The notes below the pieces were generated by a model. That model saw only the letters and a program-made list of their open reading frames with translations, was not told the DNA's origin and ran no database searches. DNA of 34,324 nt from Nanobdellota archaeon (GTDB lineage: Archaea > Nanobdellota > Nanobdellia > Woesearchaeales > GCA-2686295). The translations under genes were made by a program, and so were the position numbers. The stretch covers positions 1 through 34,324 of the forward strand of contig JAHJQL010000050.1 of assembly GCA_018819065.1 (NCBI GenBank), read 5' to 3'. Of the stretch, positions 6,080 to 32,400 are shown in pieces (position 1 is the first letter of the stretch; every line of letters begins with the position of its first letter).

Positions 6080-6409
6080 ATGCACGAACAAACAATAGCA
6101 AAAGCAATAATACAAGAAGCAACAAAGCACGGCCAAGTAGTTGGAATAACAGTTGAAGTCGGAGACCTAGGACACCTTCCAGCGCGAGAAGTAGAACAAG
6201 TGCTAAAAAGCTTAACTGAGTGGAATATAAAAATTTTAAAAAAGAAAGCGACAGTCAAATGCGAAGTATGCGGATACAAAGGAACCCCAGAAATAATAGA
6301 AAAAGGACATGACCACAACGTTTTCAAATGCCCAAAATGCAAAGCCATGATGCCAAGAATAATTGATGGCGACAAGATAATATTAATTGATGTTGAGGTT
6401 GAAGACTAA
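6080..6409 (+). CDS. hypA: Hydrogenase nickel-insertion protein HypA
   Basis: 109 residues beginning MHEQ; the N-terminal Met-His-Glu is the nickel site of HypA. The zinc domain has two CxxC pairs: VKCEVCGYKG and FKCPKCKAMM. HypA delivers Ni to the large subunit of [NiFe] hydrogenase together with HypB, which is not in this window. The gene lies in an operon with sufS upstream (11-nt gap) and hypC downstream (2-nt gap), and shows no ribosome site, suggesting coupling to its neighbours. Its client is presumably HydA at 13028-14317. Confidence 0.93.
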   Translation: MHEQTIAKAIIQEATKHGQVVGITVEVGDLGHLPAREVEQVLKSLTEWNIKILKKKATVKCEVCGYKGTPEIIEKGHDHNVFKCPKCKAMMPRIIDGDKIILIDVEVED

Positions 6410-10378: not shown

Positions 10379-11329
10379 ATGGGACGGTTTTTGAAAAAAG
10401 AGGGTCACAAGGATTTTCTAGGCAGGCTAAAGGAACATGCTGAGCTAATAGCGCCCGTTACTAGAGACTTGACACGCTTCGAAGTAATAAAGGATATCAA
10501 CGATATAAACCTAAAAGGCAAAAATCCATTCTTTCCGATAAAGAAATACTTCTTACCAAATCAGGAAAACCTATTGCATATAAGGAAAGGATTGACCAAA
10601 GCTGTAAAAGAACACTCTGACAAAAGAATAATATTTGGAGCGAGGCTTTGTGATATAAACGCATTGTCTGTGCTTGACAAGTTGTTTTTAAACAGCGATT
10701 ACCCCGACCAATCTTATAAACAAAGGAGAGAAAACACTATTATAGTTGGAGTAAACTGCATAACACCTCCTTCAGAATACTGCTTCTGCGGCTCAATGGA
10801 TTTAAAGAAGGAATCATACGACTTGTTACTGCATGAAAACGAGAATGATTACTACATAGATGTCTTAACAAAGAAAGGAGAAGAACTAGTAAAGTACTTA
10901 CCAGAAGAAGAGTCAGACTTCCCTCTTCCAAGAACAGATAAAAAACTCGAAGAAAAGAATTTGGAACTGTATTTTGACAATCAGTATTGGGAAAATGATT
11001 CAAATCTTTGTGTCAGCTGCCAGAGATGTACAACACTGTGTCCTTCATGTTTTTGTTTTGATGTGCATGATAGTGTAAATTCTGCAACGAAAAATGGTGA
11101 GAGAATCAGGACTATAGATTCTTGTCATTCAAAGGATTTTACACAAGTTGCAGGCGGCCACGTATTTCGAGACACAAGACTTAAAAGATATAGGCACAGA
11201 GTGCTTCATAAGATACAATTTTTCAAAGAGAAATTCGGAAGAAGCATGTGCACTGGTTGTGGAAGATGCATAGAATATTGTCACTCAAAGATAGATTTTG
11301 TTAAAACTATAAATGAAAACTTCACATAA
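10379..11329 (+). CDS. hydB: Group 3b [NiFe] hydrogenase beta subunit (Fe-S electron transfer)
   Basis: 316 residues, close to the length of sulfhydrogenase beta subunits. Two 4Fe-4S ligand sets lie in the C-terminal half: LCVSCQRCTTLCPSCFC and SMCTGCGRCIEYC. The N-terminal part carries FGARLCDINAL and GVNCITPPSEYCFCGSMD, also family-typical. Role: passes electrons between the HydD/HydA module and the flavin subunit HydG. It is the first gene of hydB-hydG-hydD-hydA, the same order as in Pyrococcus. The enzyme is cytosolic, with no signal peptide or membrane segments. Confidence 0.92.
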   Translation: MGRFLKKEGHKDFLGRLKEHAELIAPVTRDLTRFEVIKDINDINLKGKNPFFPIKKYFLPNQENLLHIRKGLTKAVKEHSDKRIIFGARLCDINALSVLDKLFLNSDYPDQSYKQRRENTIIVGVNCITPPSEYCFCGSMDLKKESYDLLLHENENDYYIDVLTKKGEELVKYLPEEESDFPLPRTDKKLEEKNLELYFDNQYWENDSNLCVSCQRCTTLCPSCFCFDVHDSVNSATKNGERIRTIDSCHSKDFTQVAGGHVFRDTRLKRYRHRVLHKIQFFKEKFGRSMCTGCGRCIEYCHSKIDFVKTINENFT

Positions 11330-11357
11330 AAAAGTTATTTTTAGGAGGATGTAATTT

Positions 11358-12146
11358 TTGATATACGAAGCGAAAAAATACAAGATAAAAGATGTGTGGC
11401 CTGAAACAAGCGACAACTTTCTTTTCAAAATAAAGACTAGAATAAATCCTCAGCCAGGACAATTTGTGGAGGTAAGTATACCAGGAATAGGTGAGGCGCC
11501 AATTTCAGGTGCATCATACAATAAGCACGAACTTGATTTGAATGTCAGAGTTGTGGGAAACGTAACAAACGCACTTATAAACTTGAAGAAAGGAGACAAG
11601 GTACACTTAAGAGGACCTTATGGGCATGGATATCCCATGGGTGACTTCAAAGGACAAGATTTAATATTAATAGGAGGAGGATGCGGAGTTGCTCCGTTAA
11701 GAGGAATAATAGAGTTTATTGATAAACACCGTATGGACTATGGTGAGATTCATCTTTTTTTTGGATTTAGGACTCCTGAAGACGTCCTTTTCAAAGAGGA
11801 AATGGATAAGTGGAGTTCAAAATACCACTTAAACCTTTCAGTTGACAAGACAGAAGGAAGCAATCCTTTCAACTGCCCAGTAGGATTTGTGACTGAGATT
11901 TTGAAAAAAGCAGAGTTACCAACGCATAACAGCGTCATAATGATTTGTGGGCCGCCGATAATGATGGACAAAACAATTGTCATACTCGAAAGCAAAGGAT
12001 TTAATGACAAGCAGATTTGGGTGAGCTTGGAGAGGCATATGAAGTGTTCAAACGGTAAGTGCGGTCATTGCATGGTTAATGGAAAATATGTGTGCATAGA
12101 TGGACCAGTCTTTCGATACGATGAGGTGAAGGGAATAGATGAGTAG
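11358..12146 (+). CDS. hydG: Group 3b [NiFe] hydrogenase gamma subunit (flavin reductase)
   Basis: 262 residues with ferredoxin-NADP+ reductase architecture: FAD-binding barrel, nucleotide loop IGGGCGVAPLRGIIEF, FFGFRTPEDVLFKEEM, MICGPPIMMDKT, and a C-terminal [2Fe-2S] site KCSNGKCGHCMVNGKYVC. It exchanges electrons with NAD(P)H. The start is TTG 11358: GGAGG (11344-11348) is 9 nt upstream, and the nearer ATG (11349) runs straight into TAA. The 3' end overlaps hydD by 8 nt. Not to be confused with the radical SAM HydG of [FeFe] hydrogenases. Confidence 0.92.
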   Translation: MIYEAKKYKIKDVWPETSDNFLFKIKTRINPQPGQFVEVSIPGIGEAPISGASYNKHELDLNVRVVGNVTNALINLKKGDKVHLRGPYGHGYPMGDFKGQDLILIGGGCGVAPLRGIIEFIDKHRMDYGEIHLFFGFRTPEDVLFKEEMDKWSSKYHLNLSVDKTEGSNPFNCPVGFVTEILKKAELPTHNSVIMICGPPIMMDKTIVILESKGFNDKQIWVSLERHMKCSNGKCGHCMVNGKYVCIDGPVFRYDEVKGIDE

Positions 12147-12930
12147 TCTGCCAATCTTTGAAAAGAGAAAGCCAAAAGTCGCCATACACTCAATTACTGG
12201 TTGTGCTGGTTGTCAGTTAGTAATATATTTTATCAGAGACAAATTACTTGATTTGCTCGGAGAGATTGACCTTGTCGCTGCTCCAATGATAAAAAGTAAG
12301 AATGATGAAGGCCCATACGATATTTGCTTTGTTGAAGGCATGGTTGCAAATGACAAAGACATTGAAAACGTAAAAGAATGGAGAGAACAATCTAAGTTTT
12401 TAGTTGCCTTTGGAACTTGTGCAACACATGGAAACGTTCCAGGAATAAAAGTTTTTTGTGATGAGAAAAAAGTAGAAAACATAGTCTATGGAGATAATAC
12501 AGAGGTATTGGCAGATTGTCAGCGAGTCAAGCCAACACCTATAGAAAAACACGTGAAGGTTGATTACTCAATTAGTGGTTGTCCACCTGAAGAGATAGAA
12601 TTTCTAAGAATGATTCAACACTTTCTCATGGGCATGAAGCCTATAATATATAATGAGCCTGTCTGCGTGGAGTGTACGTTAAAAGAAAACCGTTGCTTGT
12701 TAGATGGTGGAGAGGAGTGCCTTGGTCCTATGATAAGAGGAGGTTGTGACGCTCTATGCCCTTCAATAAACCATGCCTGTACAGGATGCCACGGACCCCT
12801 TGAAGATGCAAACATACTCCAAGTATTAAAGCTGCTTGAGAATAACGGTGTTTCAAAAGAGCTTGTAAAACAACGATTGCAAAAATATGCTGGCTTAAAA
12901 TTTGAAGAATTAGGAGTAATATTAAGATGA
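12139..12930 (+). CDS. hydD: Group 3b [NiFe] hydrogenase small subunit (delta)
   Basis: 263 residues. Proximal cluster ligands ITGCAGCQL, FGTCATHGN and SISGCPPEE are followed by eight or more Cys in CVECTLKENRC through HACTGCHG for the medial and distal clusters. No Tat signal, so cytoplasmic. It conducts electrons from the Ni-Fe site in HydA to HydB/HydG. ATG 12139 overlaps the hydG stop, indicating translational coupling. Confidence 0.93.
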   Translation: MSSLPIFEKRKPKVAIHSITGCAGCQLVIYFIRDKLLDLLGEIDLVAAPMIKSKNDEGPYDICFVEGMVANDKDIENVKEWREQSKFLVAFGTCATHGNVPGIKVFCDEKKVENIVYGDNTEVLADCQRVKPTPIEKHVKVDYSISGCPPEEIEFLRMIQHFLMGMKPIIYNEPVCVECTLKENRCLLDGGEECLGPMIRGGCDALCPSINHACTGCHGPLEDANILQVLKLLENNGVSKELVKQRLQKYAGLKFEELGVILR

Positions 12931-12941
12931 CTAAAATAAAA

Positions 12942-12960
12942 TTTTTGAAATATTCAAAAA
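12942..12960 (+). promoter_or_regulatory. Inverted repeat between hydD and hydA
   Basis: TTTTTGAA, spacer ATA, TTCAAAAA: a perfect 8-bp inverted repeat 11 nt after the hydD stop. In RNA it would be a small hairpin ahead of the hydA leader, possibly a processing or stability element that lets hydA be expressed differently from hydBGD. Function inferred only from position. Confidence 0.35.
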
Positions 12961-12961
12961 C

Positions 12962-13065
12962 AGGTGTTTTTGAGTATGACTAAGAAAATAACACTAAATC
13001 ATACAACAAAAACGGAGGTTTTTGAGTATGACTAAGAAAATTACTCTTAATCATATAACGAAAGT
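12962..13065 (+). repeat. 52-bp tandem duplication of the hydA translation start
   Basis: Two copies of a ribosome site, TTTTTGAGT spacer and the first ~12 hydA codons lie 52 bp apart (ATG 12976 and ATG 13028). Both read M-T-K-K-I-T-L-N-H, but with several synonymous differences (ATA/ATT, ACA/ACT, CTA/CTT). The 52-bp offset puts copy 1 out of frame with hydA. Confidence 0.8.
12976..13035 (+). CDS. Upstream mini-ORF from the duplicated hydA start, 19 aa
   Basis: From ATG 12976 the frame reads MTKKITLNHTTKTEVFEYD and stops at TAA 13033-13035, six nt inside hydA, overlapping its ATG 13028. It has its own AGGTG ribosome site (12962-12966) at the same spacing as hydA's GGAGG (13014-13018). If translated, terminating ribosomes would land on the hydA start and could couple or tune its translation. 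It may equally be a decayed duplication product with no role. Confidence 0.4.
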   Translation: MTKKITLNHTTKTEVFEYD

Positions 13066-14317
13066 AGAAGGACATGCACAACTAGACTTAGAAATAGAAG
13101 CCGGAAAACTTGTTAAGTGCGAACTTGGAGCAGTTGAAGGCTCAAGATTCTTCGAAGGAATAGTAGTTGGCAGAAAATATGATGAGATAAAAGAAATCAC
13201 GAGCAGAATATGCGGGATATGCAGCGTCGGACACTGCATGACATCACTAAAAGCAACTGAGAACGCGTTTGGAATAAAAGTAAGCAAACAAACAAGACTG
13301 CTAAGAGAACTAATGAGCATAGGTGAGAGGATAAGAAGCCATGCTACACACCTATATTTCTTAGCGCTGCCAGATTATCTTGGTTATGAATCAGCAATAG
13401 AGATGGCTCCAAAGTACAAAAAAGAGATAGAGAGAGCATTGCACCTAATGAAAACAGGAAATGAAATAGTAAGAGTTGTTGGAGGAAGACAAATGCACCC
13501 AGTATCATCAGTTGTTGGAGGATTTACACATGTGCCTTCAAAAAAAGATTTTGATGAACTGCTATTATTCCTTAAAGAAAGCAAACCACACGCCTTGGAG
13601 ACTCTTAATCTTTTTTGTAAGTTAAAATATCCACTTCTAGAACTTGAATCAGAGAATATCGCTTTAAAGTCAGATGACGGACAACCACTTCTTAACGGAC
13701 CAATAATCTCAAACAAAGGACTAAACACAACTGAGAATAGCTACACTCAATTCATAGAAGAGCGCATAGAAAAATATTCAACAGCAAAATTCGCAGTCAA
13801 AGATGGAAAAAGCTACGTTACAGGTGCAATTGCAAGGATGAATCTAAACTATCAAAACCTAAGCGTTGAAATAAAAGATTTGCTGACCAAAAACAATATT
13901 GAGTTTCCAAGCAACAACGTATTTTACAACAATGTTGCACAAGCAATAGAACTAGTTCACTGGACAAATAATGCAATAAGAATAATTGAAGAGAACAACT
14001 TTTATTATGAACCAATAGACTCATTCAAACCACGAGCAGGGATTGGACGAGCAGCAACAGAAGTTCCAAGAGGAATACTATTTCACGAATACGAGTTTGA
14101 CGAGAATGGATACGTGAAGAGTTGTAATATAATTACGCCAACAGTGCAAAACCTTCGAAACATGGAAGACCAAATAAGGCTTTACGTTTCTAACATGCTA
14201 AAAGAAGAAAGGAATGAAAATTATATAACTTTAGAAGTTGAAAAACTAATAAGAGCATATGACCCTTGCTTTAGCTGCTCAGCACACTTTCTAAAAGTTA
14301 ACTGGAATAAAAAATAG
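13028..14317 (+). CDS. hydA: Group 3b [NiFe] hydrogenase large (catalytic) subunit
   Basis: 430 codons including the stop. Ni-Fe ligand motifs are complete: SRICGICSVGHCM near residue 60 (L1) and DPCFSCSAH near the C-terminus (L2). The nine residues after that His (FLKVNWNKK) are the tail normally removed by the maturation protease, so this is an unprocessed precursor needing HypA/HypC and the protease at 8003. ATG 13028 is chosen over TTG 13022 because GGAGG (13014-13018) is 9 nt before it. Reaction: reversible H2 oxidation with NAD(P)+; family members can also reduce sulfur. Confidence 0.94.
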   Translation: MTKKITLNHITKVEGHAQLDLEIEAGKLVKCELGAVEGSRFFEGIVVGRKYDEIKEITSRICGICSVGHCMTSLKATENAFGIKVSKQTRLLRELMSIGERIRSHATHLYFLALPDYLGYESAIEMAPKYKKEIERALHLMKTGNEIVRVVGGRQMHPVSSVVGGFTHVPSKKDFDELLLFLKESKPHALETLNLFCKLKYPLLELESENIALKSDDGQPLLNGPIISNKGLNTTENSYTQFIEERIEKYSTAKFAVKDGKSYVTGAIARMNLNYQNLSVEIKDLLTKNNIEFPSNNVFYNNVAQAIELVHWTNNAIRIIEENNFYYEPIDSFKPRAGIGRAATEVPRGILFHEYEFDENGYVKSCNIITPTVQNLRNMEDQIRLYVSNMLKEERNENYITLEVEKLIRAYDPCFSCSAHFLKVNWNKK

Positions 14318-17181: not shown

Positions 17182-18351
17182 ATGAAGATACTAGCTCTAA
17201 ACTCTGGAAGCAACTCTTTGAAATACAAACTCATAAATATGTATACAAAGAAAACACTGATGACAGGGCACATCGACGCAATTGGCCTTGACAGATGCGA
17301 GATAAGAATTGAAATAGGCGCTAATAAGATAACAAAAAAAGCGCTTGTCAAAGATCACCTAGACGCAGTGATGATGGCTCTTCGCTCATTAAAGCAGGAA
17401 GAAGTCATAAAGAGCTATAACGAGATAGACGCAGTAGGCCACAGGGTTGTACATGGAGGAGAATACTATAATCACGCAGTCCTAGTAAACCAGCACGTGA
17501 TAAACAACATAAAAAAACTCTCTGAACTAGCACCACTTCACAACCCCCACAACCTAGCAGGAATACTCGCATGCAAAAAGATAATTCCTCACACAAAGCA
17601 ATTCGCCATCTTTGACACAGCGTTTCACCAGACAATACCAAAATATGCTTTTATGTATGGTATACCATTTGAGTTCTACGTGAAATACGGTATAAGAAAG
17701 TACGGCTTTCACGGTACAAATCACAAATATATGAGCGAGCAAGCAGCAAAACTACTTGGAAAAAAAAGCCATGAAATGATAACCTGTCACCTTGGAAATG
17801 GCTCATCAATAACAGCCATAAAGAACGGGAAATCAATAGATACAACTATGGGCTTTACACCACTTGACGGACTCATAATGGGTACGCGCTCAGGAGACAT
17901 CAACCCAGAAATACCACTTTACTTGATAAAAAAAGGGCACTACAAGATAGAGGAGATAGAAGACATCCTAAACAACAAGTCAGGGCTCCTTGGAATCACT
18001 CACAAGTCATTTGACGTTAGAGACATAAGAGCAATGGCGCTAAAAGGAGACGAAAAAGCAAAACTTGCTCTTCACATGCTTTCATACAAGATATCATTCT
18101 ACATCGGAGGATTCTCAACAATACTTGGAGACCTAGACTGCCTAGTATTCTCAGGTGGAATAGGAGAAAACGCTTGGTATATAAGAGAAAAAGTCTTAGA
18201 CTCGATAAAACACATAGGCGTCAAGTATGACAAAACAAAGAATAAAAATAATGATATAATAATATCAACACCAGACTCAAAAGTTAAAGTCTTCATCATA
18301 CCTGCAAACGAAGAATTAGAAATTGCAAAAGAAGTTGCTTTGCTTTTATGA
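17182..18351 (+). CDS. ackA: Acetate kinase
   Basis: 389 residues, full length. ASKHA-fold motifs: LALNSGSNSLKYKL (N-terminal phosphate loop), AVGHRVVHGGEYY, AIFDTAFHQTIP, YGFHGTNHKYMS, CHLGNGSSI and FSGGIGENAWYIR. Reaction: acetyl phosphate + ADP to acetate + ATP. Cotranscribed with pta; terminates against the convergent DUF192 gene at a shared hairpin. This is probably a main substrate-level ATP source of the cell. Confidence 0.96.
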   Translation: MKILALNSGSNSLKYKLINMYTKKTLMTGHIDAIGLDRCEIRIEIGANKITKKALVKDHLDAVMMALRSLKQEEVIKSYNEIDAVGHRVVHGGEYYNHAVLVNQHVINNIKKLSELAPLHNPHNLAGILACKKIIPHTKQFAIFDTAFHQTIPKYAFMYGIPFEFYVKYGIRKYGFHGTNHKYMSEQAAKLLGKKSHEMITCHLGNGSSITAIKNGKSIDTTMGFTPLDGLIMGTRSGDINPEIPLYLIKKGHYKIEEIEDILNNKSGLLGITHKSFDVRDIRAMALKGDEKAKLALHMLSYKISFYIGGFSTILGDLDCLVFSGGIGENAWYIREKVLDSIKHIGVKYDKTKNKNNDIIISTPDSKVKVFIIPANEELEIAKEVALLL

Positions 18352-18795: not shown

Positions 18796-18974
18796 AGATA
18801 ACTCTAAATTGCTCTTGTTTATAAAGATTTTTTGTTCAGTAGTTGAAACTGGTGATGTTTTATGGAATAGTTTTTAGATTTTTTTATTATTTTAGAGCTG
18901 TTTCTTTTGTACTGATGTTGTTTTTGTGTGATATTTAGTTAAAATTTGAGAAGTAGTTGCTTATTTTTAAAATA

Positions 18975-20096
18975 TTATTCTTCATCTCCAGGAAATATTT
19001 TTGCGTTATCTCCAACACCTGGATGTACATTTAATGTTGTGCATGTTGCATATTTGTCCAATATTTGTAGCATTGCTGGGCCATCTCTTTCAGAACTGAC
19101 TATGCTTAATGTTGGCATTGCAAGTCTTGCTAATGCATATATTAGTTCGTCAAATTTTTCATAATCTTCTGCTTTTAATAATTTGCTTCTTCCTTGACTA
19201 TATTTTCCTCTTTTTAAGAAAAATGGGATTGTCACACCAATATTTGCTAATTCATTTGCACTTGGCAAACACACTCTTGAAGGTTTGAAGTTATACTTTT
19301 TTTTGAGTGAATTTGCATGTCTTCTTAGTCCTTCAATTTCTTCTATAGGATATTGATGTAAACCGAATAATGCTCCCAGTCCAACATTGTCAAATCCTGC
19401 TTCTATTGCTCTTGCTTGCGATTGTATTCTGAAATTATAATCGGCTTTAGGTCCTCTGGGATGCATTTTTTTATATGTCTTCTTATTATAGGTCTCCTGA
19501 AACACTCTAAATTGTAATGAAGTATGTTTGACTGCCAATCGTAATTTTTTTAATCCTTCTAAAGTCGGTGGTTCTGTGTTTAAGATAATCTCTTTCAAAC
19601 CTAATTTATCAATTTCAATAAGATAAGGTACTAATTTGTCAGGTAATCTTTCTCTTCCAGGAGCACTTCCTGTTAAATAACATATGTGTTTGTGTCCATC
19701 CTTCATGACTGCTTTTGTATCAAGAACTGTTTGTGCAACAGTTAACTCTCTTAAAGGGTATGCTCTTCCTTCTTTCAATGCTTTTTGCCTATTAGGCACA
19801 CTTCCAGGACAATATTGACAATAATTGACACATGCATCCCATATGTAACAGACACCATAAAAATGCATATCTTTTCCGAACACTAATTCACGAATTTCTT
19901 GTGCTTTATCAAAAATCTTTCTTCGTTTTGCTTCGTTATATACGAGTGTAATACTTTTAGGATTTTTTAAATTAAGTTTTTTTATATAATCTTTCTTAAA
20001 CCGCAGATATGTTTTTTTGCTTTCATCTAATTTTTTTTTAACCAAAACATTATTAACATCTACTTTGTATTCTGAATATATAGAATATTTTTGCAT
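18975..20096 (-). CDS. Radical SAM enzyme of the ThiH/HydG (aromatic amino-acid lyase) clade, C-terminally short
   Basis: 373 residues. The 4Fe-4S/SAM motif is YIWDACVNYCQYCPGS (CX3CX2C, preceded by the hydrophobic strand seen in HydG). Further family marks: FRVFQETYNKKTY, HPRGPKADYNFRIQSQARAIEAGFDNVGLGALFGLH, and SIVSSERDGPAML near the C-terminus. ThiH and HydG cleave tyrosine; NosL acts on tryptophan. The protein stops at NVHPGVGDNAKIFPGDEE, about 33 residues earlier than its paralogue at 21378, so it lacks the final D-R-S...GY.P segment of the clade; no auxiliary-cluster Cys are present. It is 15 nt behind the Lrp gene (ribosome site GGAGTG), in one operon. Substrate unknown. Confidence 0.82.
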   Translation of the reverse strand: MQKYSIYSEYKVDVNNVLVKKKLDESKKTYLRFKKDYIKKLNLKNPKSITLVYNEAKRRKIFDKAQEIRELVFGKDMHFYGVCYIWDACVNYCQYCPGSVPNRQKALKEGRAYPLRELTVAQTVLDTKAVMKDGHKHICYLTGSAPGRERLPDKLVPYLIEIDKLGLKEIILNTEPPTLEGLKKLRLAVKHTSLQFRVFQETYNKKTYKKMHPRGPKADYNFRIQSQARAIEAGFDNVGLGALFGLHQYPIEEIEGLRRHANSLKKKYNFKPSRVCLPSANELANIGVTIPFFLKRGKYSQGRSKLLKAEDYEKFDELIYALARLAMPTLSIVSSERDGPAMLQILDKYATCTTLNVHPGVGDNAKIFPGDEE

Positions 20097-20111
20097 GTTT
20101 TCACTCCGTAT

Positions 20112-21116
20112 TTATTTATTGGATAATTTATCTATAAAATTATCTTTTTTATTTTGTACTTTTATTTTTGGAAAAAATCTTTCTTGATGTAGTCTATAAT
20201 ATGTTAATAATTCATATTCCTTAATTATTGTGGAGAACTTTCTGCGCATATCATCTATGAAATTTCTTATTTGGTCTGGTGTTTGTGCTTCAAACTCAAA
20301 TTCTATGTCGTATCCTCCAATTAACTGATCTTCATAAATAATATTCGGGTTTTCTCTAATGTGTTGAATTAATTGATGTTTTTTTTCTATTGTTGAATTA
20401 AACAAAGTAATGTGAATTTTGTAATAGATGTAATTTAACTTATCAAGACCTAATGTAAGTCTGTATCCTGTGATTATATTCTCTTTTTCTAACTTTTTTA
20501 TTCGTTCAATGACTGTTTTTGAAGTTAATCCTGTTTCTTGAGACATTTTCAAAATTGTTGTTCTTGCATCTCCTCCTAGGAGAGAAAGAATTATTGTGTC
20601 TTTTTCGTCAATATCGATAGGCACACTATTTTCATATATTATGAATGGTGTGCGTTCGAGTTGTTTATCCAAATAATCTCGAGAATATGCCTTAATTTGA
20701 TGATATATGCTGAAATTTTTGTTTTCTATATAATTACTATATTTATCTATAAATGTTTGATAGAATAAGTGCATTTGATTGATATCCTTAAAATAAAAGT
20801 ATGTGTTTATATCCCAATATCCTTCTACTGAAACAACCCATCCGAGACTTGGTTCATCCAATAAATAATTTATTATTTCTTGTTCTTTTTCAGGAGAAAC
20901 TTGATATAATTTTACTAATAGACGCATCCCTATATATCCGAGTTTTCCCACATTTATCGAAGCATGAAATCCTTTTATTATGCCTTGCTTTTTTAAATTT
21001 TCAATACGATAATTTACGGTGTCCTTACTTAAATTAATCTTCTTTGCAATTTGCTGGAAGGGAATTCTGCTATTTTTATCTAATTCCTTTAAAATTGTAA
21101 TATCTCGTGCATCCAT
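20112..21116 (-). CDS. Double Lrp/AsnC-type transcription regulator, 334 aa
   Basis: Two Lrp units in tandem. Unit 1: helix-turn-helix DITILKELDKNSRIPFQQIA...TVNYRIENLKKQGII, then a RAM-like ligand domain to about residue 150. Unit 2: IDEKDTIILSLLGGDARTTI...SKTVIERIKKLEKENII, then a second RAM domain. Single-unit Lrp proteins are about 150 residues, so this is an in-line duplication that could act as a built-in dimer. RAM domains often bind amino acids, which would fit control of ThiH/HydG-like enzymes. It heads the operon with the radical SAM gene and is divergent from the second such enzyme. Confidence 0.85.
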   Translation of the reverse strand: MDARDITILKELDKNSRIPFQQIAKKINLSKDTVNYRIENLKKQGIIKGFHASINVGKLGYIGMRLLVKLYQVSPEKEQEIINYLLDEPSLGWVVSVEGYWDINTYFYFKDINQMHLFYQTFIDKYSNYIENKNFSIYHQIKAYSRDYLDKQLERTPFIIYENSVPIDIDEKDTIILSLLGGDARTTILKMSQETGLTSKTVIERIKKLEKENIITGYRLTLGLDKLNYIYYKIHITLFNSTIEKKHQLIQHIRENPNIIYEDQLIGGYDIEFEFEAQTPDQIRNFIDDMRRKFSTIIKEYELLTYYRLHQERFFPKIKVQNKKDNFIDKLSNK

Positions 21117-21230
21117 TCTTACTTTATAGTATGTTTGTTTATAAATATTACTATAAAATCGTAAAAAATAGTCAGAAGTTTAATATATTTATATTACTAT
21201 TATGTAGTGATAACAAAAGAGGTGCTTAAC
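21117..21230. promoter_or_regulatory. Divergent promoter region between the Lrp gene and the 40-aa peptide gene
   Basis: 114 bp of very AT-rich DNA. The minus-strand TATA (TTTATAAAC, about 21139-21147) is roughly 27 nt before the Lrp ATG. Plus-strand TATA candidates are TTTAATATATTTATATT (21180-21196). ATATTACTAT occurs as two direct copies, and TTACTA...TAGTGA (21194-21210) is a near-perfect inverted repeat, the sort of dyad Lrp proteins bind. The peptide gene has ribosome site GAGGTG (21219-21224). Confidence 0.5.
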
Positions 21231-21353
21231 ATGACAAAAACAAACCAAACAAAAAAAGACATTCATTTCGAACAGGCAACTGTTTTTCCAAGAGAACCAA
21301 CAAGTACAATCAGTGAAATGATTTCAAGAGGATACAACCCTATAATCGGGTAA
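21231..21353 (+). CDS. 40-residue peptide resembling the C-terminal tail of ThiH/HydG-type enzymes
   Basis: ATG 21231 has a good ribosome site (GAGGTG, spacing 6) and lies 24 nt before the second radical SAM gene, in the same orientation. The sequence opens MTKTNQTKKDIHFEQ and continues ATVFPREPTSTISEMISRGY, ending NPIIG. Its last 26 residues match the tail of the downstream enzyme: TVFPREPTSTISEMISRGY versus TVHPTDPESTKKEYESRGY (T, V, P, P, S, T, E, S, R, G, Y shared). The pattern also recalls the ThiH/HydG end segment. It could be a split enzyme tail acting in trans, a regulator or a substrate; a gene-duplication remnant is the dull alternative. Confidence 0.65.
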   Translation: MTKTNQTKKDIHFEQATVFPREPTSTISEMISRGYNPIIG

Positions 21354-21377
21354 GAACAAGTATAATAGGTGACTTTC

Positions 21378-22535
21378 ATGAATAAATACGATCCAAAAAC
21401 AGAGTATAAAATAGACATTCAAAAACCAGAAATTCAACAAAAAATAGTAGAATCAAAACAATTGTATAACAATTTTGTTAGTGAGTTTAAAAGCATTGAT
21501 TTCAGAGATGAATCTTCAATAGAAAAAGTATATGAAGTAGCACAAAAGAGAGGTATCTTTGATAAAGCAACTGAAATCAGAGAACTTATTTTTGGAAAAG
21601 ATATGACCACTTATGGAGTGAGTTATATATCTGATTCTTGTGTAAGTGGATGTACTTATTGTCCCATAAGAAGGGATTCTATAGATGTTGAAACAGGAAA
21701 ACCGATTAAAAGAAAAAGACTTTCAATTGAAGAGTTCATTAAAGATACACAAGAAATAATTAAAGACGGTCATAGTCATATTTGCTTTCTTGTAGGAGAT
21801 GGAGATTTAACCACCCATCATCCTGAAAAAATGATTCCTTACTTACAAGCACTCGACCAGATTGGGGGAATTGATGAAATAATTCTAAATGTTACACCTC
21901 AAACAACAGAAACTTTCAAAACATGGAGATCTAATGTGAGGAATAAATCACTACAGTTTAGAGTTTTTCAAGAAACATACAATAAAGAAATATATGCACA
22001 AAAACATCCATTCGGTCCAAAAGCAGATTATAAATTTAGAAAAGAATCCCAATCCAGAGCAATGGATGCAGAGTTTGATAATTATGGTTTAGGAGTCTTG
22101 CTTGGATTAAACCCTAATCTTATTCAGGAGATAGATGATTTAGTTAAACATGCACAAGATATGACTACAAAATACAGTACGCCCCCTGCCAGAGTTTGTT
22201 TACCAACAGCAAATACACTTAATGGAGTAAACAATGTCGAGAAACAACATCATGTATCTTCAAAAGCAAACGAACTTGCATATGCTTTAACGAGATTAGC
22301 AATGCCAGAAGTATCAATAGTTAGTTCGGAAAGAGACACTCCTGAAATGCTCAAAAGATTAGATAACTATGCCACAAACAGAACTGTGGATGTTCGGCCA
22401 TCAGTAGGCGGAAATCTTGAACAAGTACTTAATAAGGAATCACTATTAAAACAAACAACAGTTCATCCAACAGATCCAGAATCTACAAAAAAAGAGTATG
22501 AATCAAGAGGATATAGATTAGTATTCAAATATTAA
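21378..22535 (+). CDS. Radical SAM enzyme of the ThiH/HydG clade, full-length paralogue
   Basis: 385 residues from ATG 21378; ribosome site AGGTGA (21367-21372) supports this start over GTG 21369. SAM-cluster motif YISDSCVSGCTYCPIRR (CX3CX2C). Shared with the paralogue at 18975: GIFDKATEIRELIFGKDM, LQFRVFQETYNKEIY, HPFGPKADYKFRKESQSRAMDAEFDNYGLGVLLGL, EVSIVSSERDTPEML. It keeps the C-terminal segment VHPTDPESTKKEYESRGYRLVFKY-like end that the other lacks, but no tail Cys for a HydG-type second cluster. A ThiH- or NosL-like lyase is the best family guess; substrate unknown, and no thiamine or [FeFe]-hydrogenase genes are in the window. Confidence 0.82.
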   Translation: MNKYDPKTEYKIDIQKPEIQQKIVESKQLYNNFVSEFKSIDFRDESSIEKVYEVAQKRGIFDKATEIRELIFGKDMTTYGVSYISDSCVSGCTYCPIRRDSIDVETGKPIKRKRLSIEEFIKDTQEIIKDGHSHICFLVGDGDLTTHHPEKMIPYLQALDQIGGIDEIILNVTPQTTETFKTWRSNVRNKSLQFRVFQETYNKEIYAQKHPFGPKADYKFRKESQSRAMDAEFDNYGLGVLLGLNPNLIQEIDDLVKHAQDMTTKYSTPPARVCLPTANTLNGVNNVEKQHHVSSKANELAYALTRLAMPEVSIVSSERDTPEMLKRLDNYATNRTVDVRPSVGGNLEQVLNKESLLKQTTVHPTDPESTKKEYESRGYRLVFKY

Positions 22536-22776: not shown

Positions 22777-25700
22777 ATGGTGGATAAGAATACTGCATTT
22801 ATTCTATGGTTTGACCAATTAGGAATTGAAGACATCAAATACGTCGGTGGAAAAAACGCATCTTTAGGGGAGATGTACATCAATCTAACCCCGCGAGGAG
22901 TAAGAATACCAAACGGGTTTGCAGTCACAGCAACGGCTTATCACTATCTTTTAGACAAGGCAGGGGTTAGAGACAAAATAAAAAAAATTCTATCAGACTT
23001 AAACACTCATAACATTAAAAATTTGCAGGAAAGAGGATACAAAGTTAGAGAAATCATAAAAAACACTGAGTTTCCACCAGAACTAAGAAGTGTAATAGTC
23101 GAAGCATATGGTCACTTGTGTAAGCAGTACGGAGAAAACACTGATGTCGCGGTCAGAAGCAGCGCAACAGCAGAAGACCTGCCAGATGCAAGTTTTGCAG
23201 GACAGCAAGAAACATACCTTAACATCAAGGGAGAAGAGCAGCTAATAGATGCTTGCAAGAGGTGTTTTGCCTCATTATTCACAAACAGAGCTATAAGCTA
23301 CAGGGTGGATAAGGGATTTGACCACTTCTCAATTGGGCTAAGCATTGGAGTGCAAAAAATGGTGCGCTCAGATATGGCCTGCTCAGGAGTAATGTTCTCA
23401 ATAGATACAGAGTCAGGATTTAAAGACGCGATATTTGTCACAGGAGCATATGGACTTGGAGAAAACGTTGTCCAAGGAGCAGTCAACCCAGACGAGTTCT
23501 ACGTTCACAAACCAACACTAAGACAGGGTTTTAAGCCAATAATTATGAGGAAGATTGGTGAAAAAGCAATAAAGATGATATACACAACCGACAGCAAGCA
23601 CCCAACAAAGAACGTCAACGTCTCACCTGAAAACAGGAAAGTGTTCTGCATAAACGATGATGAGGTTTTATCACTTGCGAGAATGGCCCAGACAATAGAA
23701 GATCATTACTCCTGGAAAGCTGGACACTTCAAACCAATGGATATGGAATGGGCCAAAGACGGTCAAAGTGGAGAATTATTCATAGTCCAGGCAAGACCAG
23801 AAACTGTCCACTCACAAAAAGATGTCAATGTACTGGAGAACTATGAGCTAAAAGAAAAAGGAGAGGTAATAATCACCGGAAAATCAGTTGGTTCAAAGAT
23901 AGGAAGTGGAAAAGCACACATAATAAAAGATGCTCACAGAATAAGTGAGTTTGAAAAAGGAGAAGTGTTAATCACAGACATGACTGACCCTGACTGGGAG
24001 CCAATTATGAAGATAGCATCAGCCATAGTGACTAATAGAGGGGGTAGGACGTGTTTTTCAGGAGATACAAAGCTTCTGACAAATGAAGGATTTAAAACCT
24101 TTGAGAATGTTTTTAATGGCTACGAAGGCCTTAAAGTGCCGTCTCTTAATAGAGTAACTCTTAAGATTGAATGGAAAGAAGTAAAAGCAGTTATGAAGAA
24201 ACAATCAAGGCTTATTAAAACTCAATGTTCACAAACAGGGCGAATGAATGGAAACTTTCTAAGAATTACTCCCGACCACAAGATGCTCAATATAAGAGGC
24301 GCAGAACTAGTGGATACTGAAATGTCAGCTGTTTTAGCAGATAATGAATGTTTATTAGTCGCTCAGAGATTACCAAGCCTGAAAGAATCAACAACAAAAG
24401 AGCAGATGCTTGCATATTTCTTAGGAGGAATTATGACTGATGGGCACATATACCAATCAAAGACTCATGGAGAAGTTGCATTCATACAAAAACCTACTCT
24501 TGATAAGCAAAGATTTATCCTTAAGATGAATGACTGTCTAAACCAGGTGTATGGTGAAAAGTTTAAGGAAACAAAGAAAAAAGAATCAAGCGGAGAAATT
24601 AGAGGAAAAACAGTGGTTGGAAATGCTAATTCATACAGGTGTTATTCAAAATTATTGGCAAGAGAAGTTCAGCTTGAATCTGAAGCAATGGTTCAAAGCC
24701 TCTTAACATCTGATGAGCTGCTATCTTACAACTTCTTGGCAGGTGTGATTGATGGTGATGGAACGTATAGCAACGGACGAGTCAACATTTACGTGTCAAA
24801 ACAAGAATTATTAGAGCCAATAATAGTGTCTTGTTTAAGGGTTGGAATTGTTCCCCAAGTAACAACTAATAGAAGTATTTACAACGTCCAGATAGTTGAA
24901 CAGCTTGATAGAATAGGAGAATTCACTAACAGAGTTAAATGCAAGGATAAAAGAAAAACTGAAAACAGGTTTTTTAATGCAAAACAACTATTTAAACCAA
25001 ATGTTAGCTCTGACATAAACAATAGAGTAAATAAAAACTTGTTAATAGGAACAAGTAACTTACGTAAAAACACTGCTTTGTTTAGTTCAGATTTAAAACA
25101 ACGAATAACTAATCTTTTAAATTCTGATATGAGACAAACAAGAGTTTCATTCGTTGAAGAATTAGGATTTGACGATGTGTATAACATAACAGTTGAGGAT
25201 AACCATAATTACATCGTGTTTACAGATAGATACACGCCCGTGTTAGCAAATAATTGTCACGCGGCAATCATCAGCCGAGAGCTTGGAATACCTTGTGTTG
25301 TTGGAACAAATAATGCGACAGAATTGGTTAAGCCAGATCAGAAAGTAACAGTTGACTGTTCACAAGGCGCCGAAGGATATGTGTATGACGGGCTCTTAAA
25401 GTTTGATATTAAAAAAACAACTCTTGACCAGATACCAAAAACAAAGACTAAAATAATGATGAACCTCGCATCGCCTGAACAAGCGTTTGAGCAGAGCTTT
25501 ATACCAAATGACGGTGTAGGACTTGCAAGAGAAGAATTCATCATCAACTCATACATCAAAGTCCATCCATTAGCACTCTTAAAATTTGACCAACTAAAGG
25601 ATGAAGAAGTAAAAAACCAAATTAGAGAAATAACTTACGGATACAAAAACAGAGAAGATTTCTTCGTAGATAAATTAGCAGAAGGAGTTGGAATGATTGC

Positions 25701-26400
25701 AGCAGCTTTCTACCCAAAAAAAGTTATTGTTCGACTTTCAGACTTTAAGTCAAACGAATACGCAAACTTGATAGGTGGAGCTCAGTTTGAGCCAAAAGAA
25801 GACAATCCGATGATAGGCTGGAGAGGCGCTTCAAGGTACTATAGTGAAAACTATAAAGAAGCGTTTGGATTAGAATGCAAAGCCATGCTAAAAGTTAGAA
25901 AAGAAATGGGGCTAAAAAACCTTGAAATAATGATACCATTCCCAAGAACGGTTGAAGAGACGAAGAAAGTCATAGCGACGATGGCTCAGTACGGCTTAAA
26001 ACAGGGAGAAGACGGCCTTAGAATAATAGGTATGTGTGAGATTCCTTCAAACGTAATCCTTGCAGATGAATTCTTGGATGTTCTTGATGGTTTCTCAATA
26101 GGAACAAACGATTTGACCCAGCTAACACTTGGAGTTGACAGGGATTCAGAACTCGTAGCACACGTCTATGATGAACGAAACGAAGCAGTCAAGAGACTCG
26201 TAAAACAAGTAATTGAGGTTGCCAACAAGAAAGGTAAATATATAGGTATATGTGGCCAAAGCGTGAGTGATTATGTTGAATTTGCAGAATATGTTGTTCA
26301 ATGTGGAATTCAAACCATGTCCTTAAATCCCGATACTGTGATAAAGACAACCATTGCTGTTGCGAAGTTGGAAAAAAAGCTTGGTATCAGTACTGATTAA
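22777..26400 (+). CDS. ppsA: Phosphoenolpyruvate synthase containing an intein
   Basis: 1207 residues as translated; removing the 401-residue intein leaves 806, normal for PEP synthase (pyruvate, water dikinase). N-terminal ATP-binding domain: KYVGGKNASLGEMY, VAVRSSATAEDLPDASFAGQQ. Swivelling phospho-His domain: IVTNRGGRT then CHAAIISRELGIPCVVGT, with the catalytic His next to the splice site. C-terminal PEP/pyruvate barrel: DGVGLAREEF, MIPFPRTVEE, FSIGTNDLTQLTLGVDRDS and GICGQSVSDYVEF. Reaction: pyruvate + ATP + H2O to PEP + AMP + Pi, for gluconeogenesis. Activity requires intein splicing. Confidence 0.95.
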   Translation: MVDKNTAFILWFDQLGIEDIKYVGGKNASLGEMYINLTPRGVRIPNGFAVTATAYHYLLDKAGVRDKIKKILSDLNTHNIKNLQERGYKVREIIKNTEFPPELRSVIVEAYGHLCKQYGENTDVAVRSSATAEDLPDASFAGQQETYLNIKGEEQLIDACKRCFASLFTNRAISYRVDKGFDHFSIGLSIGVQKMVRSDMACSGVMFSIDTESGFKDAIFVTGAYGLGENVVQGAVNPDEFYVHKPTLRQGFKPIIMRKIGEKAIKMIYTTDSKHPTKNVNVSPENRKVFCINDDEVLSLARMAQTIEDHYSWKAGHFKPMDMEWAKDGQSGELFIVQARPETVHSQKDVNVLENYELKEKGEVIITGKSVGSKIGSGKAHIIKDAHRISEFEKGEVLITDMTDPDWEPIMKIASAIVTNRGGRTCFSGDTKLLTNEGFKTFENVFNGYEGLKVPSLNRVTLKIEWKEVKAVMKKQSRLIKTQCSQTGRMNGNFLRITPDHKMLNIRGAELVDTEMSAVLADNECLLVAQRLPSLKESTTKEQMLAYFLGGIMTDGHIYQSKTHGEVAFIQKPTLDKQRFILKMNDCLNQVYGEKFKETKKKESSGEIRGKTVVGNANSYRCYSKLLAREVQLESEAMVQSLLTSDELLSYNFLAGVIDGDGTYSNGRVNIYVSKQELLEPIIVSCLRVGIVPQVTTNRSIYNVQIVEQLDRIGEFTNRVKCKDKRKTENRFFNAKQLFKPNVSSDINNRVNKNLLIGTSNLRKNTALFSSDLKQRITNLLNSDMRQTRVSFVEELGFDDVYNITVEDNHNYIVFTDRYTPVLANNCHAAIISRELGIPCVVGTNNATELVKPDQKVTVDCSQGAEGYVYDGLLKFDIKKTTLDQIPKTKTKIMMNLASPEQAFEQSFIPNDGVGLAREEFIINSYIKVHPLALLKFDQLKDEEVKNQIREITYGYKNREDFFVDKLAEGVGMIAAAFYPKKVIVRLSDFKSNEYANLIGGAQFEPKEDNPMIGWRGASRYYSENYKEAFGLECKAMLKVRKEMGLKNLEIMIPFPRTVEETKKVIATMAQYGLKQGEDGLRIIGMCEIPSNVILADEFLDVLDGFSIGTNDLTQLTLGVDRDSELVAHVYDERNEAVKRLVKQVIEVANKKGKYIGICGQSVSDYVEFAEYVVQCGIQTMSLNPDTVIKTTIAVAKLEKKLGISTD
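24052..25254 (+). mobile_element. Intein with LAGLIDADG homing endonuclease inside ppsA
   Basis: 401 residues. Block A begins at Cys 24052 (CFSGDTKLLTNEG); block B is NFLRITPDHKML; LAGLIDADG helices are YFLGGIMTDGH and NFLAGVIDGDG, so the homing endonuclease looks intact (each ends in an acidic residue). Block F is VYNITVEDNHNYIV; block G is VLANN followed by the +1 Cys of the host (25255). The terminal Asn is present, but the penultimate residue is Asn rather than the usual His. The insertion splits GGRT from CHAAI, directly before the catalytic His, a highly conserved site typical for inteins. Confidence 0.95.
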
Positions 26401-26422: not shown

Positions 26423-26440
26423 TGCAATTTTTTTTTATTC
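26423..26440 (+). terminator. T-run after ppsA
   Basis: A run of nine T (26428-26436) begins 28 nt after the ppsA stop and overlaps the stop codon of the convergent giant gene. It is a plausible U-tract terminator for ppsA. Confidence 0.4.
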
Positions 26441-29400
26441 TATGTCTAGGTAGAAGTAGTATGTGACTGTTCCGCTTTGTCCGCTGTTGTTGATTGCTAC
26501 TATTAGTTCGTAGTCGGTGTTTGTCGTGTTTTTGTAGTCTTTTTGGTTTGGGTTGATTTTGGCTGCGAATGCGAAGTTGTTTAGTGTGCTTGGGCTTGTG
26601 TTGTCTTGGAATAGTCCTGCTTTGAATAGTATTTTGTTTAGTGTTCCTTCTTGTGTGTATCCTCTCAGTTCTACTGTTGGTACGTTTTCTATTTGTGCTA
26701 TTGTGTTGTTTGTGTTGTATGTGTTTGTTGCGCTGTCTTGGTCTGTTGTGGTCCAGTTGTTTATTTGGTCTAGTGTTGTGGTGTCGTTTATTGCTTGTAG
26801 ATTTGAGAAGTCAAAGTTGTTGTTGGTGGTTGCGAATGCTGTTTTTATTTGATCTTTTGGAACGTTTCCGAAGTTGTATAATTTGTTGTTGCCGATTCCT
26901 ATGCTTAGGTTTCCGCTTACGCTTCCGTGATATCCTTGCCATTTGATTGTGTTTCCGGTTGTGATTGTTAGGTTTACTTCTGTTGTTTGGCTGCCTATTG
27001 CGGTTTGTGTTTCAGGGGCTGGTGTTGCTATTCGTTCTGTTGCGCCTATTGTTATTGTTGCGCCTGTTATTGCTGCTTCTTTGTTGGTTATTTTTAGTAT
27101 TGTTAGATCGTTGTATGTGCTGGTGTTTACGGTGATGTTTGCTTCGTCAGCAGCGAAAAATTTGTAATTGTGGTTGCCGGCTCCGATTGTTGTGCCGCTA
27201 ATCGTTGCAATGTATAGTTTTCCGTTTGTGACGTCTGTATCGCCTACGTCGTTTTCGCTCATCGTGTAGTTGTTGGTGCTATCAATTTCTACTTTGACCC
27301 ATTGTGCTGCGTCGTTTTCGGCGTCTGTGTAGTTGACGCTGAATTGGTATGATTGTATTGTTGTGCCGGTGTTTGGCGTCACGTTTCCTTGTGTTAGGCT
27401 TGGTGGTCCTCCTTCTCCTCCTCCTGTGCCTGTGATTCCGTTTACGACGTAGTATTTTGTTCCGTCTATTGTGTCATATGTGAAGCTCATTCCGCTTATT
27501 GTTTTGTTTTCGTGTAGGGTTACTTTGTTTGCACAGTTATAGGTTGTTTCTTCTAGGTTGGTTGCTCCTGGGCAGATGTAGATTTCGCCGGTTGCTGTGT
27601 CTGTGTATGGTATGTATAGTGTTTTTGATGTGTTGATTCTTGAATCATAGTTTGTTCTGTGGAACACTGCTTTTTTTAGTGTTATGTTGTTGTCTATTGT
27701 TAGTCCTGTTAGGTCTAGGTCTCCTGGTGTTTCGTTGAATCGTACGTGTATCTTGGCTATTATTCGTCCCGTGTTTTGGTCTTTTATATATACGTCTTTT
27801 GGTGTTGTTATTCTAGTGTTTGTGAGGTTTGTTGTTGCGTTGTCTGCTAGTTCTATTTTTATGTTTGTGTTGTTTATTATTATTAGTGCTCCTTCGTTTT
27901 GTATGTTTAGGTTGTTTGTGGTGTTGCTTGCGGTGTAGTTAATGGTTGCTGTGTTGTTGCATTTGTAGTTGTATGTTCCTATGTTTAGTGTTGAAATGTC
28001 TGGGTTGCTTACTGGTATGTTGTTCTTGTATAATAGTGGTGTGACTTCTTCGTTGTTGGCTGTGCATGTGACTGTTGATTGTGTTGGGTATGGTAGTGTA
28101 GTGTTTGGTGTGATGTTTAGTGTTAGTGTTGTGGTTGTTGCGTTACTGATTGTATAATTGCTGAATCCGTTTACTGTGAATAGTACTTGATTATTAGCGT
28201 ATGATATTAGTTGGCAGGTAGTACATAACTGGTTATCTCTAAGTATTGTTGGGTTTGTGTATTGTCCGTTTATTGTTAGGTTTGCGCTTGTGTTGAAGCT
28301 TGTGTGTAGGTTTGCGGTGTTGACGTATATCCAGTTTTGTCCGAATAAAATGTTGTTTGTGAGGTTTGCTGTGCTGGCGTTTATTGCGTTGTTCCAGTTG
28401 ATTGTTCCGTAACCAGTTTTTTGGATGATAAAATTGTTTACACTTTCAATGTTTTCAACAGCACCAAGGTTGGTGGTGTTGCCGTCAAATCCTGTTGTGT
28501 AGTAGCATTGTGATAAGCTGGTGGCACCTGTTGCTGAGCTGAAACTTGTTGGGCAGTTATATTGTACGCCTGTGATGCAGTATGTTGTGCTTGTGCATTG
28601 GCTTTGGCCTGTTCTCGTTGTTGATGTACCTCCAGTGCTGTAGTGTCCATTGCTCACACTGTTTTGTACTCCGTTTGTGCAATAATACTCGTTTCCGCCA
28701 CAAGCAGTTTGTCCAGTTCTAGTGGTGCTTGTGCCTCCTGTGGTATAGTATCCTGGTGTTGCTTGTGTACAACTACTAGCACCTGTGTTAGAATAATAAT
28801 CGTTAGAACCGCATGCATTGGCAGTGGCGCTGCTGCTTCCTGCGCTGCAGTAGTATCCTGCGTTGCATTGTCCGTTGCAGGTGTTTACATTGTTTGTTGT
28901 TGAGCTTCCGTAGTATCCTGCATCACACTGAGATCGACTGTTGCTTAATGTTGCGCTGTAGTATCCTGTTCCTGCTACGTTGCATGTTCCGCTTTCGCAG
29001 TTGTAGTATCCGCTGTTTCCTAGGCAGCTGCTTAGTGCTGTTCCTGATGTTGTGCTTGTGGTGTTTGAGTTTGTTGGGCAGCTTGTTGCGCTGCTGCTTC
29101 CTGCTGTGCAGTATTTTGCAAATCCACAAGCATTCTGTGTTGCACTTGTGCTTCCTGCTGTGCAGTAGTATCCTGCGTTGCATTGTCCGGTGCAGGTGTT
29201 TGTTGTTTGTCCGCTTGTTGATCCGTAGTATCCTGCGTTGCATTGTCCGTTGCATGTGCTTACGCTGTTTGTTGTTGATGATCCGTAGTATCCTGCATTG
29301 CATTGTGTTCTTGTATCACTATTATTTGTAGAATAATAGCCTGCGCCAGCAACAGTGCAAGTGTTTGTAACCTTGTAATACCCGCTATTGCATGCCCATG

Positions 29401-32400
29401 TTCCTCCTGCTTGACAATTATCATTGCTAACAGTTTGGCCGGCAGTATAACCATCGCCGCCTGATTGGCCACAAACCTTGCTTGAGTTAGTACAATACTT
29501 AGTTGCAGTATTAGGACCAGTAACACACTTATTAGAAGTACAATTATCATTAGCAGAACAGGATTCACCGTTATCCAAAAGAAGTCCTGAATTAATCCAT
29601 GTACCATTATTGCAAGAATCTGCTGCGAGAATACTGTTTTGTAGATAACATACACCTGATGATACACAACTAGAAGACGCATTGCAAAAAGTCCAATCTG
29701 TCGTGTTAGAACTACACGAGGCGTTGACTGCACAAGTCTTGCTAATATTGTAGAAACTAAGTGAGTTGTAAATTGGAAAGCTTCCTGAAACTAGTTTGCC
29801 TCCCAGTGCAAATGTGTAACTAGAAGAATTTGAGAAATTACTAATAAATACGCCGCCAGAATCAGTGCTGCCAGAATAAACTTGAGTCGAGCCTGATATG
29901 TTGATTTGTAGTGTTGTAAATGGAGTTGGGCTGCTGGTTCTGTTAAGAGACTTAACAACCAAGGTTGTGCCTGTCATACTTGTTGCAGGACTGGATGAAG
30001 TTGGAGCTGTGTAAGGTGTGCCCGCATGGAAACGCACTGTGCCATTTGCTCCATTGGTTCCTGAACAACTGCCGCCTGAGCATGAACCTTTTGTACCACC
30101 AAGCACGTTTATTGTCATGCCGGAATTATTGGATGAATATGATATTACAGTTAGGTTTCCGCCGTTTCCTCCTCCACCATTATTGCCGTTTGTGGATGGG
30201 TGTCCATTTCCTCCAATTGATGAAACTGTTCCAGAGAGTATTGCATTTTCTGAAAGAAGATTGATGCCTCCTCCACTGCCTGCGTATCCTCTGCTTCCCG
30301 CTGCTGCTGATGAACTGCTCGTAGCGTCGTTGGCGCCGTTGGAGGAAATTGAGCCTGCTACTGTCAGGTTGCCTGCTCGGAGTGAAATTAGACCGGCATT
30401 TCCACCCACTCCATACTTGCCTGGGACTTCACCAGAGTTTCCGCCTGTGGCTCCGTTTGAATTTAGTATTGAAGTTGCGCTAATTGTTAATGATGATTGC
30501 AGATTTATTGTTGAAATGTTTATTATTCCTCCGTTTCCTCCATTTCCGCCATATCCTTGTGTTGAAGAACCGACTCCTCCTGTGCCTCCTGTGGTTGTGA
30601 TGTTTCCAGTAATAACTCCGCTACTTAGATTTATTAAAATAGTATTTCCATTTCCTCCATTTCCTGCAGTACCGTATGCGCCGCTATTTGTTCCACTTCC
30701 ACCTCGGGATGATATTGTTCCTGTTATGTTTAACTCCCCTGTGGCTGAGATATTAATAATATTACCATTAGATCCTGTAGCGCCATTGCCCCAATTATTA
30801 GCGCCACTGCCACCCGTGCTTCCGCTGCTTGAGATGCTTCCTGAAATAACACCACTAATTGATCTTATGGATATGGCTCCTGAGCTTCCTCCTGTTCCTC
30901 CATTATCACTATTCGCACCGTTTCCACCTGTAGAAGATACTGAACCTGAAATATTAAGATTATTATTAGCTAAAATTATGACATTGTTGCCGTTGCCTCC
31001 GTTGGCACCATATGTTCCTGATCCTGTGCTTCCTCCACTACCTCCATTTCCACCGTTGCTTTTGAAAATGCCTGATAAGATTCCGCTGTTTAGACTTATT
31101 GATAGCATGCCAGAAGTTCCGCCTAATCCTCCTGTATTTCCGCTTGATGGTGTGCCGCCTGTTCCACCTTGGGATGATACTGTGCTAGATATGTTTAAAT
31201 CACCAGTGGCTGTGATATTAATGGCTCCGCTGTTTCCTGCGCTGCCGCCAGTTCCTCCGCCTCCAGAACCTCCAGTGCCTCCAGTGCCTCCAGTGCTTAG
31301 AATGTTTCCAGAGATAATTCCTCCTCCTAAAATTATGGATATGGCTTTTCCAACACCAGCTGCTCCTCCTGGTCGTCCGGCATTTGCACTGTTTCCGTTT
31401 CCACCCTGAGATGTAAGTGCACCGGAAATGATTAGATTATTTGTGGCGCTTATATTAATTGTATTACCATCGCCGCCAGCGCTGCCATCATAGGCAGAAG
31501 AAGCTCCGGCTGCGCTTCCAATACTTGAGATGCCTCCTGAAATAACACCGCTACTCAAATTTATAGATATGGCTCCTGAGTTTCCTCCTGTTCCTCCAGT
31601 GTAGCTGTTCGCAGCTGTTCCAGCCGAAGAAGATATTGCACTAGTTAAATTTAAAATTCCTGTGGCTGTGATGCGGACAGTATTACCATGTCCTCCGTTG
31701 CCCCCTGTATTTCCTGATACAGCGCCTCCGTTTCCTCCGCTACTAAGAAAAGTTCCAAGTATATTTCCATTGTTAAAGTTTAAGTATAGAATTCCAGCAG
31801 TTCCTCCAGCTCCGCCAGAGTATGAGCTGTGTGCGCTACCTCCGTTTCCACCTTGTACGGATATCCTGCTAGTGCTGGTTATGTTTAAATCACCTGTGGC
31901 TGAGATATTAATAGTGTTGCCATTACCACCTGCCTTGCCGGCTCCGTTAGGAGAATTACCAGGTATGCTTCCTTGGCTTGAGATGTTTCCAGAAATAACA
32001 CCACCACCTAATTTTACAGTTATAGCTCCTGAGCTTCCTGCATTTCCTCCTGTATAACCATCCTTACCATCTCCTCCTGAAGAAGATACTGTTCCTAAAA
32101 TATTCAAAGTATTGTTAACTGATATAAATACAATATTACCATTACCACCATTACCTCCAGTAGCTCCTGTTCCAGTACCCCCTGCACCTCCTACACTGTT
32201 GAAAGTTCCTAACATATTTCCATTGTCATTGGTTGAGTATATGTATATAGCGCCAGCGTTTCCACCATTACCTCCATTCTTTGCATTTCCACTATTCCTG
32301 CCAAGACCCCCATTTGAATTTATTGTGCCAGAAATATTTAGACTGTTGGTTGCAGTGATATTGATTGTGTTGCCGTTGCCACCTGCCCCTCCGTAGCCGT

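Follow-up and report, generated by a model that had tools for sequence, protein, structure and literature searches.

The short radical SAM enzyme S and the 40-residue peptide P, encoded on opposite strands of one divergent locus in the archaeal DNA analysed here (34,324 nucleotides, hereafter the window), are a split gene, as is confirmed by comparison with orthologues that carry both parts on a single chain. We think it probable that the two are pieces of one radical SAM enzyme produced by gene fission, with assembly in trans as the likeliest outcome. S would fold as a barrel as far as strand β8, P would hold helix α8 and the last strand, and the peptide, binding S non-covalently, would close the barrel and restore activity, which would in turn require expression from both of the divergent operons. 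The source genome is a draft assembly of 1.52 Mb in 93 contigs, 95.5% complete, in which S and its full-length paralogue Long (48% identical to S) are the only ThiH/HydG-like genes; its relatives within the order include a MAG titled Nanoarchaeota. All four open reading frames of the locus, namely S, an Lrp-type regulator, P and Long, lie where the original prediction had put them (Table 1). The regulator and S probably form one operon, and P and Long probably another.

Table 1. Features of the divergent locus and of the hydrogenase and HypA-like genes in the window.
Feature	Position	Strand	Remarks
Short radical SAM enzyme S	18975-20096	-	373 aa; C89/C93/C96 CX3CX2C; ends after predicted β8, without α8 and C-terminal strand
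Two-domain Lrp/AsnC-type regulator	20112-21116	-	334 aa; 15 bp upstream of S
Divergent promoter region	21117-21230	.	TATA-like TTTATATT at 21188-21195; Shine-Dalgarno GAGGTG 21219-21224 ahead of P
Peptide P	21231-21353	+	40 aa; displaced S C-terminal segment, predicted α8 and terminal strand, ending GYNPIIG
Full-length paralogue Long	21378-22535	+	385 aa, own tail; 24 bp after P
Left breakpoint, inferred from layout	18960-18980	.	End of S core
Right breakpoint, inferred from layout	21200-21262	.	Just upstream of P or within first P codons
Four-subunit sulfhydrogenase-like, group-3b-like [NiFe] hydrogenase	10379-14317	+	NF040832-NF040836 matches below cut-off
HypA-like protein	6080-6409	+	

That S is shortened and without its C-terminal segment, as had been proposed, is borne out by the alignment: the protein ends in ...NVHPGVGDNAKIFPGDEE, about 30 columns short of its relatives, and the DNA after the stop codon encodes nothing tail-like in any of the three frames. 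S retains 155 of the 168 core residues that are invariant among its fused relatives, and has a good Shine-Dalgarno site of its own. Both S and Long lie above the Pfam Radical_SAM cut-off (PF04055; for S, 32.1 bits against a gathering cut-off of 29.5), and the C89-C93-C96 motif of S is present.

The S family is very rare, and is related to ThiH and HydG. Among 288 genomes of the order, the sole other with an S orthologue is G032, whose protein is 64% identical to S, runs to 406 aa and ends in ...NVHPGVGDNAHVFPCNGHKQTHFEQATTFPRDPHKAVEDMKSRAYNPLIRV. A scan covering about 85,000 species, each represented by one genome, and based on two short peptide patterns that divergent members may escape, gives three S-type relatives, from a Nanoarchaeota MAG (G032/L017), a Kuenenbacteria MAG (L018) and a WOR-3 MAG (L019); profile searches of 327, 380 and 147 genomes returned no further S-type members. 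A short form occurring without the peptide had been named beforehand as the finding that would speak against completion by P; none was found, all three other members being fused. In all three the helix belongs to the one enzyme chain, so here a complete enzyme is probably assembled from two parts, in a split form found in only one genome, a draft assembly. In a phylogenetic tree, S, Long and the fused relatives form one clade (100/100), separated from the other rows by a branch of 2.44, within which the S-type subclade has support of 83/87. Viral contigs yielded no relatives, plasmid records gave matches only below 60% identity (the best among the matches listed at 27–29%), and a search of the literature for split enzymes of the radical SAM type found nothing relevant, as judged by title and abstract. 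A further ThiH-like clade exists in the same order (L006 and L007, in genomes G190 and G118); its members have 375–395 aa, a full tail and an ARPGVGGN motif, and the clade is separate from both HydG and the S family.

The sequence of P, MTKTNQTKKDIHFEQATVFPREPTSTISEMISRGYNPIIG, is identical to the fused tail of G032 at 18 of 31 positions (E = 2e-12). When the window was searched as all 918 of its stop-to-stop frames of at least 20 aa, P was the first match of each of the three independent fused tails (E = 1.7e-12, 4.3e-17 and 6.1e-9), a match far above chance. P retains each of the 11 residues that do not vary among the fused tails. Its identity to those tails is 53–63% and that of S to the fused cores is 56–65%, so that both pieces have diverged alike. 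Searched against 145 relatives, P matches itself and the fused tail of G032 only. The sequence GAGGTG stands 6 nt before the ATG of P, with a pairing energy of -9.5 kcal/mol against the anti-Shine-Dalgarno, a value reached by 2% of window ATGs. These data point to P as a gene that evolves under constraint, and the recency of fission could account in part for its conservation.

The expectation that this small open reading frame would resemble the segment missing from S holds for the tails of the S orthologues and fails for the tail of Long, with which P gives no BLAST alignment. An origin of P as a copy of the paralogue's tail was rejected for this reason, together with the match of P to the orthologues' tails. 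Judged by sequence comparison, P is the displaced C-terminus of S, and the pair has the homology expected of a naturally split enzyme, in that a separate fragment is homologous to the tail fused in the orthologues.

Structure prediction with AF2, on alignments of only five sequences, gives a fused orthologue (pLDDT 79, pTM 0.84) with β8 at residues 352–358, a linker at 359–384 with pLDDT <50, α8 at 388–397 and a short strand at 401–403. S alone (pLDDT 81, pTM 0.84) shows the identical order of elements and ends at β8. The models place the cut in the disordered loop between β8 and α8, such that P is predicted to supply α8 together with the barrel's terminal strand; a placement of the peptide away from the barrel end, which had been set out in advance as contrary evidence, was not seen. 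Foldseek puts both the fused orthologue and S on HydG, ThiH and NosL, and against ThiH (7pd1_A) the model that includes the tail reaches a target TM-score of 0.70 (397 columns), the one lacking it 0.62 (353 columns). The radical SAM domain of TcThiH forms a complete (βα)8 barrel that runs up to a GxxP motif, and the stretch from GxxP onward is mobile and covers the barrel in one crystal molecule (PMC9046217). The GYNP of P stands at the place matching this GxxP. Of the original claim that P completes S in trans, then, the homology (the fused tails pick out P) and the fit (the models of the fused orthologue and of tail-less S) are both upheld, the homology strongly, and action in trans is the probable reading.

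A single inversion with one end inside the linker would account for the whole layout. An ancestral operon in the order Lrp, full-length S and Long would have undergone inversion of the Lrp-plus-core segment (about 18975–21230), one end falling within the β8-α8 linker; the tail, left beside Long, would then have acquired a start codon and a Shine-Dalgarno site, and would now be co-transcribed with Long and divergent from Lrp and S. Re-inverting the Lrp-core segment puts Lrp, the S core, the tail and Long on one strand, with gaps of 15 bp (Lrp/S) and 24 bp (tail/Long). No S remnant was found upstream of P, no intermediate of the fission was encountered, and no relative showed the ancestral order of Lrp, S and Long. 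Between the two breakpoint regions, exact inverted matches extend to 10 nt at most, and the lack of longer inverted repeats at the ends speaks against a phase switch as well as against an assembler misjoin; an invertible phase switch was rejected on this ground.

A rearrangement of this kind could also simply have broken the gene, leaving S inactive or decaying and P a functionless leftover of the 3' end. That the case is single, that the fission may be recent, and that a full-length paralogue could cover some of the function would all sit well with such a loss, yet P has a start codon, an open frame, a Shine-Dalgarno site that ranks within the top 2% for ATGs of the window and the complete set of invariant tail residues, and S for its part keeps its core residues, the CX3CX2C motif and its own good Shine-Dalgarno site. 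We accordingly regard a broken gene as rather unlikely. Far less credible is an artefact of assembly, whereby a misjoin inverted the Lrp-core segment of a gene that is in truth intact. The contig is indeed a draft, and a single inversion would yield precisely this layout, but an inverted breakpoint match of 10 nt is shorter than a misjoin by an assembler would typically require, and only coincidence would then explain why a strong Shine-Dalgarno site stands exactly 6 nt ahead of the ATG of P.

Since P lies 24 bp upstream of Long and is probably co-transcribed with it, one might suppose that the peptide serves Long, or that S, Long and P form one heteromer, as was first considered. Long, however, has a tail of its own that P does not match, and a second copy was not found in the three fused genomes, so that a heteromer is not general in the family; nothing points to one here, and we give this pair of ideas very little credence. 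The reading that we prefer is still that of a single enzyme made in two pieces, S and P. A bolder version would see S as a naturally split barrel to which a 40-residue microprotein gives α8 in trans; the peptide, transcribed together with the paralogue from a divergent operon, would be a lid that can detach and so link the activities of both enzymes, a version that we consider rather improbable.

As for the chemistry, S and Long fall far below the curated models of the ThiH, HydG, PylB and NosL type: they score 120.6 and 133.9 bits, respectively, against a ThiH cut-off of 380 (TIGR02351), 108.1 and 121.9 against 312.15 for HydG (TIGR03955), and 30.3 and 32.2 against 400 for NosL / MIA synthase (TIGR04158), none of these cut-offs being reached. 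The tyrosine-binding residues of TcThiH are T299, R306 and E158 (PMC9046217). Mapped onto S by hand from HMMER alignments and the multiple alignment, these markers are replaced by E336, L343 and N173, respectively; R300 of ThiH is kept as R337, and the glutamate with which HydG compensates for E158 is L141. By the residue criteria of that study (PMC9046217), S is unlikely to be a tyrosine lyase of the ThiH/HydG type, and the tyrosine chemistry initially envisaged loses favour. No thiamine genes were recognised among the open reading frames read in the window.

ThiH (PDB 7pd1/7pd2) resembles S in its radical SAM (βα)8 barrel, CX3CX2C motif, N-terminal α domain and R300 equivalent, and in a C-terminal stretch from GxxP that is able to cover the barrel; unlike ThiH, S is far under the cut-off, has the tyrosine-binding residues replaced and has its C-terminal segment on a separate chain. 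HydG, the [FeFe]-hydrogenase maturase (PDB 4wcx/4rtb), is closest among solved structures in both fold and sequence, and has N at the position of ThiH E158, whereas S is under its cut-off and lacks both the compensating Glu and the C-terminal auxiliary-cluster domain. This domain is absent from Long as well, neither protein extending past the ThiH-like tail; the order's HydG homologues have about 80 further residues. NosL / 3-methylindolic acid synthase (PDB 4r33, 6htk) has the same fold and, as S, is without an R306 equivalent, but is a full-length single chain, and S reaches 30 bits against its cut-off of 400.

Gene neighbours differ among the fused relatives. That of L017 is a polyprenyl-synthetase-like gene, and the WOR-3 enzyme (L019, 3932–8971) comes last in a run of methyltransferase, carbamoyltransferase, glycosyltransferase and deacetylase-like genes, perhaps a natural-product or glycan cluster. 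Two-domain Lrp proteins occur in 47 of 118 genomes of the order and, being so common, say little on the substrate. The closest double-Lrp paralogue of the regulator (51% identical; L033, G000:C20, 896–3423) stands divergent beside a B12-type radical SAM-like gene, with a methyltransferase-like gene as well.

A [NiFe] hydrogenase of the type found in the window is common in the genus. A role for S as supplier of its CO or cyanide was rejected, since 27 of 60 relatives, four of the five same-genus genomes among them, have the hydrogenase without S, and G032 has S and no match to the window hydrogenase. Widespread as it is in relatives without S, the hydrogenase does not explain S. An acetate kinase gene (17182–18351, + strand) has no counterpart in any of the five further genomes searched within the genus, so the stretch may be accessory DNA. 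Beyond Long lie a PEP-synthase-like open reading frame (22777–26400, + strand) with what appears, from sequence only, to be an in-frame intein (CFSGDTKLLTNEG ... VLANNC before HAAIISREL) and a gene for a repetitive, surface-protein-like product of 2252 aa, rich in glycine and asparagine (26435–33193, - strand).

A radical enzyme served by a small separate protein has a precedent in YfiD (GrcA), a spare part of pyruvate formate-lyase that works in trans (PMC8683613). Here, too, a short polypeptide is proposed to stand in for the C-terminus of a radical enzyme in trans. YfiD, on the other hand, takes the place of a tail damaged by oxygen, in an enzyme that is otherwise complete, and bears a glycyl radical, whereas P is the sole copy of the tail and would contribute a structural helix; the resemblance is one of working principle, not of relationship.

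The locus brings to light a very rare, uncharacterised ThiH/HydG-like family with members in three unrelated phyla. If S and P do work together, they would offer a natural test of the extent to which a radical SAM barrel depends on its last helix and on its C-terminal lid, a mobile part that in crystals of ThiH adopts open and closed positions over the barrel. They would also represent a clean case of enzyme fission by one DNA inversion, and P would be a real gene of 40 codons, missed by ordinary annotation.
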